Shown here in pieces: positions 8,603-42,623 of a stretch of 64,000 nucleotides of DNA; position 1 is the first letter of the stretch, and the number at the start of each line of letters is the position of its first letter. The notes under the pieces were generated by a model. That model searched no databases. It was not told the DNA's origin and saw only the letters and a program-made list of their open reading frames with translations. Source of the DNA: an uncultured Bryobacterales bacterium (GTDB lineage: Bacteria > Acidobacteriota > Terriglobia > Bryobacterales > UBA6623); contig CATOTH010000010.1 in the NCBI GenBank assembly GCA_951813065.1, forward strand, positions 124,001-188,000, in the 5' to 3' direction. The position numbers and the translations under genes were made by a program.

Positions 8603-8953
8603 CTACCAATCGCCATCTCGAACTTCTCGCACTATCCGCAGGACCGCATGGTCGGGGGCCTCCCTAAGGTTTCGGAGCAGATCCGCGAAAAGCGGCGCCC
8701 GTCGGATGATGATCTCCTGCAAATCCTTGGAAACCTTGCCCGCCATTGCGAGCAGGAGGTCAGGGTTCTCGCCGAGGTCGTCGGCGATCCGGCGGATGGT
8801 TGCCTCGGAAGGCGGAGACGCCACTTCACGCTCAATCTTGCTCAGGTAGGCAGGTTCAATACCGACCCGCTGCGCGACTTGGCGCAATGAGTACGAGCGG
8901 TCGTCGCTGTGCCGACACTCACGGAGGTCGCGTATGTACGATCCGAATGGCAT
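8603..8953 (-). CDS. XRE-family helix-turn-helix transcriptional regulator
   Basis: A 116-residue protein with an N-terminal helix-turn-helix: SLRQVAQRVGIEPAYLSKIE is the classic XRE/Cro motif, followed by SEATIRRIADDLGENPD. The C-terminal 45 residues are helical and probably dimerise. ATG 8953 is chosen over the upstream TTG at 8998, because the perfect palindrome 8956-8976 sits directly in front of it and the residues encoded upstream are unlike a helix-turn-helix leader. It is predicted to repress its own promoter and that of the conserved gene 55 bases downstream. Confidence 0.85.
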   Translation of the reverse strand: MPFGSYIRDLRECRHSDDRSYSLRQVAQRVGIEPAYLSKIEREVASPPSEATIRRIADDLGENPDLLLAMAGKVSKDLQEIIIRRAPLFADLLRNLREAPDHAVLRIVREVRDGDW

Positions 8954-8955
8954 GA

Positions 8956-8976
8956 GTACTGTGTAGTACACAGTAC
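8956..8976 (-). promoter_or_regulatory. Palindromic operator in front of the XRE gene
   Basis: GTACTGTG and CACAGTAC are perfect eight-base arms around a five-base spacer. The site lies three bases upstream of the regulator's ATG, so a bound dimer would cover the start of transcription or translation. The adjoining TTATGT on the minus strand is a possible -10. This is an inferred autoregulatory site. Confidence 0.6.
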
Positions 8977-9159
8977 ATAATAACTGGAAAGATTGCAAGT
9001 CGGATCGCGTGAGGATCAGCGTGCTGCGGGCAGCGGTCTTGCTCTGGCGCCGTAACCGGGTTGGTCCGGCACCGCTAGCGATCCGTCACAGTTGACGCAG
9101 GTGCAAAGCGTAGAACGGCCCGGTGTTCTGCACCCAACGCCATCTCGGTCAGGGAGGCC

Positions 9160-37287: not shown

Positions 37288-39783
37288 CTACTCGGGACGG
37301 TACTCGACCCAGATGGGGGAGGCCCAGGCCATCTGCCCGTCTTCCTGCTGGACTCGGACGTAGTAGTAGCTTTCCCCAGGGGTCGCGTCGGCATCGCGAA
37401 ACGCAAACGACACCTCCCTGACTCCGGGCCGGGCCGAGTAGAGATAGGTGTTGTCCTTGATGATCTGGATCTCATGAATCGGGCCGGTGCCTCGTACCGC
37501 AATCTGCACCTGGGGCTTTTGACGAGTCCGTGTCGAATCGCCCATGATGGCGTCTCCGATTCGCACGTCCACCACGATATTGTCGGTCGCGGCGTATGCG
37601 TGGCGCTGCTGGAGCGCGCGGAAGATCCCTTCACGAGTTGGTTCCTCGGCGTAAACCGCTGCGTAGGAGATGTGAGTCGAGCGATGGTCGGAAGACGCGA
37701 TGAATCCGATCTTGTACCCCTTGGCGAGCGCGCTCTGAGCGAATCCATCAGCGAACCGCTCTCCCGAATTGACCCTTGGAGCGCCATCTGCCTCGTAGCT
37801 CATCCGACATCCCTGATAGATCTCCAGCAACGGCTCCATGGCCGGATCGTTGAACGCGAAGTTCGTGCCGCCGCCTGCGGCTATTGTGTGCGGGATACTG
37901 ATCGCGTCCTGGCCACGAAGGTGCTCCCAGAGCCGCAACTCCTCGGGCTGTCGCGGAGAGTCCTCGTTCTCCATGCTGCTCTCGATTGTCTTATTGAATG
38001 CCAGGGTACCCCGCTCAAGGTTGATGATGTTGCGATGTCCGTAAGGCCATCGGAGGCTCCGCTCGTATCCGAATAGCGGAGAGAATTCCCCCGGTACGTA
38101 AAAGACATCGGCGAGTTTCTGCGTTCGCCACCAGTCGTAGCTGCGGTTCTCCGGCCGGCGCAGCGCGCCGCTACCACCGTAGAAGTGATCCGTAGAAGCG
38201 ATGAAGTCGAGTTCCGCTGCGTCGAGGGCGTAGCGGTACATATCCCACAACGTGCCGTCAAAGCCACCGTCTCCGCTGATCTCGGTATGACGGTGCAAGT
38301 CGCCCCAATAGAGCTGGTAGCGCTTCTCGCCGGCAGCGATTGACTGCCGCCGGTCGGTCCAGGCCGTCTTCTTGTACGGCCGGGCCGCTCGCGACGGAGC
38401 GACAGGGGCGAGTTCGGCCCGTGTGGCTTCGGCCGGATTGATCCGTGCTACGCGAATCTTCCCGACCGTCCGCTCGTCGTGCGTAGTCACGGCTCCGCCC
38501 GGCTCCCAACGATCGTCTGACGGGTACGCGATCCACGTCGCACCATCTGGAGCAACGGCCGTCGAAAGTCGCTGGTCATTGCTTCCGGCGCTGCCGTCCA
38601 GTCGTTCAGGGGCCGACCACTGCTCGCCCGAGTATGTCATTGCGTGAATGTTCCACGCAGCTGGGCGCTCTTTCATCCCCCCGCCGTCGTTGCGTGGGAC
38701 CCAGCGGCGGAGGAATAGGCGCGGCGACCCGTTCGGATCGATGGTCATCTGCGGTATCTCGTACGACAGGGCGAATTCGTCCGTCATCGCGGTCTCGAGA
38801 GAGCCCTTCGGTTTCCATCGCTGCCCGCCGGAAAATGCCGCTACGCCGATTTTCTGGGAGTACCGCAGGCTGACCAGTTGACCGACCGACCGTTCCACGC
38901 TCCACGGCGCGGGCGTTCCCCAGTCGCCTCGTTCGCTCTCGCGATTCCAATAGGGCATGTCGAGCCCCCAGTTCGGACCCTGGTCGTCCCAGGCGATCCA
39001 CGCCCGGCCCTCGCGATCGACGGCCACGGTCGCACGGGCCTCAAAGTTCGGAGAGTTGGTGATCGGGTGTTCCGGCGAGAGTACCCCCTCCTCGAGCACA
39101 CGCAGGTAGACGTCGTAGTCCCCGTGGCGGTAGCTGTCGTACACGATGAACAGCCGGCCCTGCCCGTCCAGTGCGGCGTCTGGTTCCCAGTCGTTCGCCT
39201 CGTGCGTCGTGACCGCGGTGGCGGCCGACCAGCGGTTCCCGTCGAAGCTCTTGAGGTAAATGTTGGCGTCGCCTGTCCTGAATGATTGCCAAACGAGGTG
39301 CAGGCGGCCAGTCGCGTCGGCGAGCAGCCGGTGATGCAGGTCCGGTTGGGGATCTCTCGTCAAGCGCTCGACCGGATTCCAGCGGCCCTCGTGCCAACTG
39401 CGGGCGTAGATGTCCACTTTGCCGCTGACTTGCGCGCTCCATGCGACCCAAACCCGTCCGTTGGGCTGAATCGCGAGTGCTGTCTTGAGATAGTCGCCGA
39501 CTCTGGGGCTCGCGACCATGGGCTCCTGCCAGATCTCGCCCGACATCCTCCGGATCATGATCTCGTCAGAGCCGCGGCCGTCGTATTCCGCCCACGCCAC
39601 CCAGAGGTCTCCATCGGGAGCGACTGCAGCCGACGGCCAGTCGGCATGTTGATCCGGACTCGAAATCTCCTGCGGTTGTGCCTCCGAGGTGGCGACCAGG
39701 GCCACATGGACTCCGACAATGGCAAGGCCTGTCGCGATGCGGCGCATCAATCGCCCGGTACGAGGAGAGCTGAAACCTAGCAT
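37288..39783 (-). CDS. Secreted DUF3604 protein with N-terminal beta-propeller
   Basis: About 831 residues. After a signal peptide (cleavage near ATSEAQ) there is a beta-propeller built from repeats such as DWPSAAVAPDGDLWVAWAEY, LHHRLLADATGRLHLVWQSF and FEARATVAVDREGRAWIAWD. From about residue 470 follows DUF3604, a PHP-like metal-dependent domain: YWGDLHRHTEIS, DFIASTDHFYGG, AISIPHTIA and GFIASSDHRSTHIS are likely metal ligands. The C-terminus is an Ig-like strand segment. DUF3604 proteins are probably phosphoesterases, but no activity is proven. Starts at 39810, 39783 and 39747 are all possible; 39783 keeps a plausible n-region. Confidence 0.82.
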   Translation of the reverse strand: MLGFSSPRTGRLMRRIATGLAIVGVHVALVATSEAQPQEISSPDQHADWPSAAVAPDGDLWVAWAEYDGRGSDEIMIRRMSGEIWQEPMVASPRVGDYLKTALAIQPNGRVWVAWSAQVSGKVDIYARSWHEGRWNPVERLTRDPQPDLHHRLLADATGRLHLVWQSFRTGDANIYLKSFDGNRWSAATAVTTHEANDWEPDAALDGQGRLFIVYDSYRHGDYDVYLRVLEEGVLSPEHPITNSPNFEARATVAVDREGRAWIAWDDQGPNWGLDMPYWNRESERGDWGTPAPWSVERSVGQLVSLRYSQKIGVAAFSGGQRWKPKGSLETAMTDEFALSYEIPQMTIDPNGSPRLFLRRWVPRNDGGGMKERPAAWNIHAMTYSGEQWSAPERLDGSAGSNDQRLSTAVAPDGATWIAYPSDDRWEPGGAVTTHDERTVGKIRVARINPAEATRAELAPVAPSRAARPYKKTAWTDRRQSIAAGEKRYQLYWGDLHRHTEISGDGGFDGTLWDMYRYALDAAELDFIASTDHFYGGSGALRRPENRSYDWWRTQKLADVFYVPGEFSPLFGYERSLRWPYGHRNIINLERGTLAFNKTIESSMENEDSPRQPEELRLWEHLRGQDAISIPHTIAAGGGTNFAFNDPAMEPLLEIYQGCRMSYEADGAPRVNSGERFADGFAQSALAKGYKIGFIASSDHRSTHISYAAVYAEEPTREGIFRALQQRHAYAATDNIVVDVRIGDAIMGDSTRTRQKPQVQIAVRGTGPIHEIQIIKDNTYLYSARPGVREVSFAFRDADATPGESYYYVRVQQEDGQMAWASPIWVEYRPE

Positions 39784-39877
39784 GGTTGAAACTGTTTTCC
39801 GTCCATGCATCGTAGCCTGTTGAATCGACGGTGTCTCAAGTTGCCAACCAACGCCGAAAAGTTTCTTGCCGACGGGG

Positions 39878-39907
39878 TTGACAGCTGCCGCATTCACTCT
39901 GTAACAT
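39878..39907 (+). promoter_or_regulatory. Sigma-70-type promoter
   Basis: TTGACA at 39878-39883 and TAACAT at 39902-39907 are separated by 18 bases, a near-consensus promoter for the membrane protein / regulator pair. Its first operator half-site overlaps the -10. Confidence 0.6.
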
Positions 39908-39948
39908 AGAGTTACTCTGATATACAGAGTACATAAGTAATCCAGAGT
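39896..39948 (+). promoter_or_regulatory. Four-half-site symmetric operator
   Basis: ACTCTG occurs at 39896 and 39914, and its inverse CAGAGT at 39925 and 39943. All four are symmetric about position 39922, with 18-base steps on each side. The inner pair is a perfect TACTCTG-N5-CAGAGTA palindrome. The array covers the -10 element and runs almost to the AAGGAGG ribosome-binding site of the gene at 39962. It is probably bound by the winged-helix protein encoded at 40515. Confidence 0.65.
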
Positions 39949-39961
39949 CAAGGAGGACTCG

Positions 39962-40531
39962 ATGACCGACAATACTCAACTCAAGGAAGACATCGCGTTC
40001 GTTCGTGCCGCGACCGAGCGGTCGGAGGCGCCGTCCGTTCCTGCAATCTATCTCTTGTGGGCGTTGCTCGGAGGCGTTGGCTTCGCACTGGTCGATTTTG
40101 TCGACGACCTTTCGTGGATTGGCACCTACTGGCTCTTTGCGGGGCCAACCGGATTCGTGCTCTCGGTTTGGTTCGGCATTCGCGCGAGCCGCAGCGCCGG
40201 CTTTAGGGATCGCCAGACTGGGGTACGCCAGGGCCTGCACTGGCTGGCGTTCATGGCTGCAGGCGTGCTTGGACTGGCACTCGTCCAGGCTGGGCAGCTG
40301 ACGTGGGCTGGTTTCGGGTCTCTGTGGGTTCTGCTGCTCGGCCTGACCTATTTTCACGCGGGCCTGTATCTCGAGCGGCGGATGATGTCTATCGGTGTCC
40401 TGATGGGCGGCGCGTACCTAGTAACGGTATGGGTTCCGAGCTTCGGCTGGACTACTGCAGGTGCGGTGCTCGCTATCGCGCTCGTGACCGGAGCCTTTCT
40501 CGGAGCACCGAAGCGTGAAACGGCCAGCTGA
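39962..40531 (+). CDS. Membrane protein of the winged-helix pair
   Basis: 189 residues with five or six membrane segments (YLLWALLGGVGFALVDFV, YWLFAGPTGFVLSVWFGI, LAFMAAGVLGLALVQ, FGSLWVLLLGLTYFHAGLYL, VLMGGAYLVTVWV). I do not recognise a named family. AAGGAGG lies six bases before the ATG, one of the best ribosome-binding sites in the window. Its end overlaps the start of a winged-helix regulator by 17 bases. This membrane protein + HTH_34 pairing recurs in bacteria, which suggests the regulator controls the membrane protein or senses through it. Confidence 0.75.
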   Translation: MTDNTQLKEDIAFVRAATERSEAPSVPAIYLLWALLGGVGFALVDFVDDLSWIGTYWLFAGPTGFVLSVWFGIRASRSAGFRDRQTGVRQGLHWLAFMAAGVLGLALVQAGQLTWAGFGSLWVLLLGLTYFHAGLYLERRMMSIGVLMGGAYLVTVWVPSFGWTTAGAVLAIALVTGAFLGAPKRETAS

Positions 40532-40844
40532 CCCCGAGGTGCCAGCTCTTGACGAGCTCGACCTGCTCAACGGCCTTCTTGAGCATCGCGTTCGGCTGGC
40601 GGCTTGCGTCCTGCTTTCCAAGCACGACGCGATGTCCTTCACCAGTCTCAAACAGGTGCTTGGCGAGACGGACGGCAATCTCGGCGCGCATCTCCGCAAG
40701 CTCGAGGAGTCCGGTTACCTGGCTGTGGAGAAGACGTACCGCGACCGGCGGCCGGTAACTTGGTACCGGCTCAGCGAGAGCGGTCGGACCACACTGAAGC
40801 GGCACCTCTCAGTTCTGACGAGGCTGATCGATCAAGCGATATAG
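40515..40844 (+). CDS. Winged-helix transcriptional regulator (HTH_34-like)
   Basis: 109 residues matching the winged-helix group PF13601: NGLLEHRVRLAACVLLSKHD, SFTSLKQVLGETDGNLGAHL (recognition helix), RKLEESGYLAVEKTYRDRRP and TWYRLSESGRTTLKRHL. These single-domain proteins usually bind as dimers. It overlaps the preceding membrane protein by 17 bases and lies under the four-half-site operator, so autorepression is likely. No ligand is predictable. Confidence 0.85.
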   Translation: MKRPADPEVPALDELDLLNGLLEHRVRLAACVLLSKHDAMSFTSLKQVLGETDGNLGAHLRKLEESGYLAVEKTYRDRRPVTWYRLSESGRTTLKRHLSVLTRLIDQAI

Positions 40845-40854
40845 AGTAGGAGTA

Positions 40855-41290
40855 ATCTCCTGCTCCGCATCGGGTGGGCCCGAAGTGCGCTGTCCACGGA
40901 GCGAATGGTTCTCCCCCTGAGGGCAGGTGCACGGCAACAGACTCCCCGGGGGCGAGGTCGCTTCACTGTGTCAGGCCCAGTTCCGTGCCGGTCGACAAGT
41001 GCACCTAGACACGAACGGCGCAGAGCGTCTGTCACGTCGTGTTCTCGACCGTGCCGCCGAAGGCGCTTCGGGCCGGGTCGAACGCCAGGATGAGCCGTGC
41101 TCCACGCCGAGTCTCGTACCGAACGTCCCCGTGTCGGATGTATGCCCCCGCTTCCTCACCTTTGGACTTATGCTCACCATGACCCTCTTCTCGATCGTGC
41201 TCGCGCTCCTCGTCGAGCTGATCGGGAGCCCCGCCTCCATCTGGTTCTCCGCGTTGCCGTGCGGCAGGTTCGGAAAGCTCTGAGACGGTT
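40855..41290 (-). pseudogene. Decayed gene of a small conserved family
   Basis: Minus-strand reading: AGAYIRHGDVRYETRRGARL, then ILAFDPARSAFGGTVENTT and a stop at 41032. In another frame it continues TLCAVRV, stop, VHLSTGTELGLTQ, stop, SDLAPGESVAVHLPSGGEPF with APWTAHFGP. Together these pieces read as one short conserved protein, similar to FxLYD-like domains, with one frameshift and two in-frame stops. I do not know the family name. No start is credible, so it is dead. Confidence 0.55.
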
Positions 41291-41939: not shown

Positions 41940-42320
41940 TCAATCAGACGGAGCCTTCGTGAGGTCGTACTCACGAACCAACACATCGGCCGGGAGGTTC
42001 CAGTTGCCTGACAAAGCGCGGATCATCGCCAGTGTCAGGGGGCGGTGGCGGTTTAGCACCTCGGAGGCGTGGGGCTGGGATCCAATCAGGGCGGCAAGGT
42101 CCCTCTGTCGCAGACCGCGGGCTTCCATCACATGTTCGATCGCTGAAATAGGATCCGGTGACTCGATTGGCCAGCGCTCGGATTCGTAAGCTTCGACGAG
42201 CGTGACGAGAACCTCGAGTTCATCGCCCTCGGGTGTGTCTGGGGGAGCGCACATCAGTCCATCGATAGCAGTCAAAGCCGCTTCGTAGTCCGCGTCGCAC
42301 TTGATGGGCTTGATCCTCAT
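41940..42320 (-). CDS. higA: HigA-type antitoxin (type II toxin-antitoxin)
   Basis: 126 residues. The C-terminal half is a helix-turn-helix: SAIEHVMEARGLRQRDLAAL, then IGSQPHASEVLNRHRPLTLA, as in HigA antitoxins. The N-terminus (CDADYEAALTAIDGLM, then PEGDELEVLVTLVEAYE) matches the HigA group that binds the toxin through its N-terminal helices. It follows higB by nine bases. It neutralises the HigB nuclease and represses the shared promoter. Confidence 0.9.
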   Translation of the reverse strand: MRIKPIKCDADYEAALTAIDGLMCAPPDTPEGDELEVLVTLVEAYESERWPIESPDPISAIEHVMEARGLRQRDLAALIGSQPHASEVLNRHRPLTLAMIRALSGNWNLPADVLVREYDLTKAPSD

Positions 42321-42329
42321 GCTGAGCCC

Positions 42330-42623
42330 TCAGACCCGGGAGGCATCGATTCCGTCGTATTGGGCATGCGTCCCCACGAACCTGACAAATCCGATACGCC
42401 TCTGGTAGTCGAAGCGTACGACAAGCCGGTACCTGTTCCCGCCGATATTGAATACGACCCGGTCCTTGCCAACGATGCTTGCATTTCTGTAGTCCGCCTT
42501 CACGGAACTTGGTGATGGCCACTCGGCCTTCGACGCGACCGCATACCAAGACTTGAGCGGTTGTTCTGCTCGGTGTTCGGTTTCCCAAAACGTGCGCAAA
42601 GTTCGCTTCGCGACAATCCGCAC
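42330..42623 (-). CDS. higB: HigB-type mRNA interferase toxin
   Basis: 97 residues of the HigB_toxin family (PF09907): TLRTFWETEHRAEQPLKSWY, VKADYRNASIVGKDRVVFNI, GNRYRLVVRFDYQRRIGFV and a C-terminal RFVGTHAQYDGI. HigB cleaves mRNA on ribosomes. The start is GTG 42623, with the -10 element about 12 bases upstream, so the transcript is leaderless or nearly so. The toxin-before-antitoxin order is typical of higBA. Confidence 0.9.
   Translation of the reverse strand: MRIVAKRTLRTFWETEHRAEQPLKSWYAVASKAEWPSPSSVKADYRNASIVGKDRVVFNIGGNRYRLVVRFDYQRRIGFVRFVGTHAQYDGIDASRV

Follow-up and report, generated by a model that had tools for sequence, protein, structure and literature searches.

Tandem 17-bp dyads over the promoter of a membrane-protein/HTH_34 operon: a predicted autoregulatory operator that recurs across bacterial phyla

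In autoregulated repressor systems, tandem dyad operators are placed at a fixed step across the -10 element, the transcription start, and the leader. A small winged-helix repressor may also share its operon with a membrane protein, as in Listeria, where the PadR repressor LltR represses the operon that encodes both it and a DUF1700 membrane protein (PMC6624303). For regulators of the PF13601 (HTH_34) family, which includes PH1061 (1ub9), the literature searched yielded neither an operator nor a description of a membrane-protein partner, and nothing relevant on ACTCTG/ACTTTG dyads.

The window, i.e., the whole 64-kb stretch of DNA analyzed here, carries a two-gene operon (hereafter the home locus) whose elements are listed in Table 1. 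As in the tandem-operator systems, the home dyads stand at a fixed step over the -10, the start, and the leader; in contrast to widely spaced operators, adjacent dyads nearly touch, being separated by 1 bp here and by 0 bp where a 17-bp step occurs elsewhere. As at the LltR locus, one operon combines a small winged-helix protein, here a putative repressor, with a membrane protein of several spans and unknown function; however, the two genes stand in the opposite order, no DUF1700 model matches the membrane protein, and the regulator stays under the PadR cut-off (PF03551, 20.4 bits vs 27). It likewise remains under the cut-offs for MarR (PF01047, 22.1 bits, cut-off 24.6) and ArsR (PF01022, 19.1 bits, cut-off 22).

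The affinity to PF13601 is clear, with 74 bits against a cut-off of 27 (E 1.1e-20) over profile positions 1-80 of 80, and PH1061 of Pyrococcus horikoshii is both the best PDB sequence match and the closest PDB fold (1ub9, TM 0.83/0.90). AlphaFold2 modeling of the regulator produced a confident winged helix (pLDDT 91.8) with the element order H25-36, H42-49, H53-65, E69-76, E79-86, H88-108, which comprises a recognition helix (about residues 53-65, including Gly57), a two-stranded wing, and a C-terminal helix. The gene starts at 40515, 567 bases downstream of the array, in agreement with the roughly 570 bases given in the initial annotation of this DNA, and its 17-bp overlap with the membrane gene is retained in most close relatives. 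The 189-aa membrane protein was predicted with a pLDDT of 85.7; it belongs to no family in Pfam or NCBIfam, and a fold search gave nothing significant (best E 1.1).

Table 1. Coordinates of the promoter, operator, leader, and coding elements of the home locus in the window.
Feature	Position	Strand	Remarks
-35 element TTGACA	39878..39883	+	6/6 in a consensus scan; kept in the closest genus relatives
Operator O1 ACTCTGTAACATAGAGT	39896..39912		Complete 17-bp dyad (6-5-6) with the -10 inside; kept in all array-bearing genus relatives
-10 element TAACAT	39902..39907	+	Within O1; its final T also opens the right half-site TAGAGT
Operator O2 ACTCTGATATACAGAGT	39914..39930		Complete 17-bp dyad, both arms perfect; covers the inferred transcription start
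Operator O3 CATAAGTAATCCAGAGT	39932..39948		Right half-site intact, left decayed; loci L042 and L044 have ACTCAGTAATCCAGAGT
Shine-Dalgarno AAGGAGGA	39950..39957	+	1 bp past O3; kept in relatives
Membrane-protein gene, 189 aa	39962..40531	+	Predicted N-terminal helix and six further membrane-type helices
HTH_34 (PF13601) winged-helix regulator gene, 109 aa	40515..40844	+	GTG start; 17-bp overlap with the membrane gene

The initial annotation described four hexamers arranged symmetrically over the promoter, and all four are present: ACTCTG at 39896-39901 and 39914-39919, and CAGAGT at 39925-39930 and 39943-39948, with a common centre at 39922 and steps of exactly 18. A search for the same symmetric layout with any hexamer (X, X, X', X', span up to 60) found this as the sole match in the window, and such a layout arose in only 2 of 300 dinucleotide-shuffled versions of the window (mean 0.007); the symmetry is far beyond chance. 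A fifth half-site, TAGAGT at 39907-39912, had been overlooked; it differs from CAGAGT by one mismatch and pairs with the first ACTCTG, so that O1 becomes a complete 17-bp dyad. The array is thus a series of tandem 17-bp dyads in one period, two of them complete (O1 and O2) and one half-decayed (O3), with their centres 18 bp apart and one base between neighbors. The symmetry about 39922 follows from this arrangement, since any three-dyad array is symmetric about its middle dyad. A minus-strand intrinsic terminator called at 39931-39913 was rejected, being merely the dyad; shuffles yield 1.2 such hits.

The promoter hexamers are separated by an 18-bp spacer, score 10/12 matches, and form the only promoter-like site in 39700-40950. 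The dyad lies across the core promoter of the operon that encodes the regulator, an overlap that is kept across relatives, and the earlier statement that the half-sites overlap the -10 is borne out, with the -10 sitting within the first dyad. Both in the window and in 11/11 relatives compared, position 12 of the dyad is occupied by T in O1 and by C in O2; no other half-site base shows a consistent difference between the two operators in this set. A T at this position of O1 is expected if the base doubles as the last T of the -10 (TAnnnT); a single base thus appears to serve polymerase and repressor together.

To place the motif in its genomic context, the pattern ACTCTRN5YAGAGT was searched in the 5.59-Mb genome. 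Three matches were returned, namely O1, O2, and one within a coding region, so that outside coding regions the pattern occurs at O1 and O2 alone; no genome-wide regulon was found for this pattern, and the operator seems dedicated to its own operon.

Conservation within the genus was assessed in 11 genomes, and the sequences of O1 and O2 were compared between the window and 11 relatives. Eight of the 11 genomes hold both genes together with the tandem array at its 18-bp step. Two (G004 and G006) lack the array, the membrane gene, and the regulator alike, and in one (G008) both genes have diverged (69% and 58% identity) and a degenerate dyad pair stands at a 17-bp step. Absence of the arrangement from close relatives had been proposed as grounds for discarding the original observation; the genomes without it are those in which the genes, too, are missing or diverged. 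The O1-O2 distance is exactly 18 bp in the window and in all 11 relatives compared. O3 is retained in the closest species with a variable left arm (ACTCAG, CCTCAG, or CATCAG). In sister loci L046, L048, L160, and L161 it is missing although O1 and O2 are still present (L048 and L160 are perhaps one genome). In L042, both arms of O2 carry symmetric changes (GCTCTG...CAGAGC).

To extend the comparison beyond the genus, distant HTH_34 loci were gathered by protein similarity alone, so the upstream site was not selected for. The dyad ACTYTR-N5-YARAGT was present with at least 11/12 matches in the expected upstream stretch of 110 of 145 loci, vs 0 of 145 shuffled, while about a quarter of this first set had no clear dyad. 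In a larger set analyzed without a position prior (n = 220), matches of at least 11/12 occurred in 159 loci (4 shuffled) and perfect 12/12 matches in 115 (0 shuffled). These loci span Acidobacteriota, Chloroflexota, Gemmatimonadota, Planctomycetota, Latescibacterota, and Gamma- and Alphaproteobacteria, and the dyad is nearly always located 5' of a small membrane gene that itself precedes the HTH_34 regulator. In most classes it touches or overlaps promoter elements, lying around the -10 at the home locus and at gammaproteobacterial and Latescibacterota loci, directly after the -10 in Chloroflexota, and directly before the -35 in many Acidobacteriota. Many lineages and relatives have one clear dyad only. 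In lineages such as Chloroflexota, flanking half-sites are often directly adjacent, with a step of 17 bp, and by sequence comparison multimeric site layouts recur in other lineages with a different step.

Several subgroups showed particular features. In Ser-type Acidobacteriota loci (L021, L024, L026, L174, L177-L187, and others), ACTTTG-N5-CAAAGT often stands directly 5' of the -35, and a further half-site (ACTTG) overlaps the -35. Loci L220 and L130 encode KGNLS recognition helices and have the shifted dyads AGTTTGTAGTGCAAACT and GGTTTGTATTGCAAACT, which suggests that these HTH_34 relatives form a third specificity class. Seven gammaproteobacterial loci with Asp at the Gly/Ser position (L221, L223, L224, L226, L227, L229, and L230) have no such dyad upstream, and their HTH_34 proteins may use a different operator.

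The identity of the protein that reads the dyad was addressed by relating half-site position 4, with its partner at position 14, to recognition-helix residue 57 (DGN-L-G/S), and the former was found to track the latter. Proteins with Gly57 have C:G at position 4 in 81 of 90 cases and never T:A, whereas those with Ser or Ala at this residue have T:A in 60 of 65 and C:G once. On a regulator tree built without the residue-57 column, the residue switches about six times, with three independent pairs on well-supported branches; all three are concordant for position 4, and a phylogeny-corrected test was not significant, the switches being too few. The site co-occurs with the regulator and follows its recognition helix, though through few independent changes; among the computational evidence, the residue-57 association points most strongly to the HTH_34 protein as the reader of the dyad. 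The earlier assignment of the winged-helix protein as the predicted binder is supported by this half-site/recognition-helix match, by the co-occurrence of array and genes, and by the presence of the same dyad before the same gene pair across phyla.

Considering these observations together, we hold it highly probable that the array is the autoregulatory operator of the membrane-protein/HTH_34 operon, which would be bound by HTH_34 homodimers that shut off their own transcription. The dyad symmetry of the sites suggests that the regulator may bind DNA as a homodimer. One homodimer would occupy each 17-bp dyad, with one recognition helix per ACTCTG half-site; the two half-sites of a dyad are offset by 11 bp between centres, roughly one turn, so that both recognition helices could lie on one DNA face. 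With dimers on O1 and O2, and more weakly on O3, the DNA from the -10 through the start and leader as far as the ribosome-binding site would be covered; up to three bound dimers would occlude the promoter, resulting in negative autoregulation of the operon. The sequences show the anatomy of the array, its conservation, its exclusive tie to this operon, and the agreement of half-site and recognition helix; binding, repression, and multiple occupancy at the array are what we infer from them. Cooperative contact between neighboring dimers is possible and would fit the invariant 18-bp step; as 18 bp corresponds to about 1.7 turns, such dimers would be rotated and not face the same side. The membrane partner might sense an envelope signal and then release or sequester the repressor, a guess prompted by the operon structure and by analogy with autorepressed PadR/DUF1700 operons such as that of LltR.

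The initial annotation had envisaged a different geometry, in which exactly two dimers bind cooperatively about 39922 and the outer half-sites are essential. The 18-bp step, invariant in all genus loci that retain the array, would suit this scheme, but O1 is completed by the fifth half-site, the outer right half-site belongs to the separate, decaying O3, the four sister loci without O3 keep O1 and O2, and many lineages have a single clear dyad; we consider it unlikely. In place of two dimers sharing four half-sites around one centre, the unit would be one 17-bp dyad per dimer, repeated every 18 bp, with the fifth half-site and the third, half-decayed dyad included. The proposal that the downstream winged-helix protein binds these sites therefore survives in part: they are very probably HTH_34 operators, while the dimer scheme as worded is not supported. 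The possibility that another regulator, e.g., a global one, uses the dyads and that the HTH_34 gene is a co-regulated passenger draws on the fact that dyads of such shape are common among winged-helix and other repressors. It is very unlikely given that the motif is confined to the HTH_34 operon in the genome, barring one coding-region site, is absent wherever the gene pair is absent, precedes HTH_34 genes across phyla, and has a fourth half-site base that tracks the recognition helix of the HTH_34 protein.

An activator or dual-function site, at which HTH_34 on one dyad would aid RNA polymerase, is suggested by the Ser-type dyads, often immediately 5' of the -35 and thus in a possible activator position; at the home locus, however, the -10 falls inside O1 and the inferred start within O2, where bound protein would keep polymerase out, and such a role is highly improbable. 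Least credible is an action of the inverted repeats as RNA, in the form of a leader hairpin or attenuator beside the Shine-Dalgarno: although in the leader O2 would form a hairpin (6-bp stem, 5-nt loop) and the leader fold reaches -13.6 kcal/mol (z -1.8), 14 of 200 shuffles fold equally well, no Rfam family was found at threshold, the equally conserved O1 is mostly 5' of the inferred start and would stay outside the transcript, and the dyad lies 5' of the -35 in other lineages. Autorepression by HTH_34 is argued from the position of the dyads at the home locus and is not claimed for the whole family, because in the large Ser-type class, most of it from Acidobacteriota, the dyad is just 5' of the -35, where activation is also possible.

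Autorepression by occlusion is in itself an ordinary mechanism. Judged from the sequence comparisons, the array is one instance of a widespread module of site, regulator, and membrane protein, for which the literature searched gave no description, and the home array represents a single copy of this phylum-spanning pairing. Since the same literature has no operator for PF13601, the motif can serve directly to predict operators for many unannotated HTH_34 regulators, and the match of Gly/Ser with C/T would allow a one-residue, one-base specificity swap. A more far-reaching and rather doubtful reading is that HTH_34 and the small six-TM protein constitute a widespread, undescribed envelope-sensing module with one conserved operator, ACTYTR-N5-YARAGT, in which residue 57 would set specificity (Gly57 reading C and Ser/Ala reading T at position 4) and the N-terminal helix of the membrane protein would control the repressor directly.

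Two further loci were observed in the window. An XRE-type HTH gene on the minus strand (8603-8998) carries at its 5' end the palindrome ACTGTGTAGTACACAGT (in full, TACTGTGTAGTACACAGTA) at 8958-8974, likely the autoregulatory operator of this unrelated regulator. On the minus strand at 41943-42623, a HigB-type toxin gene (PF09907, 107 bits) is followed by a gene for an HTH protein resembling the HigA antitoxin.
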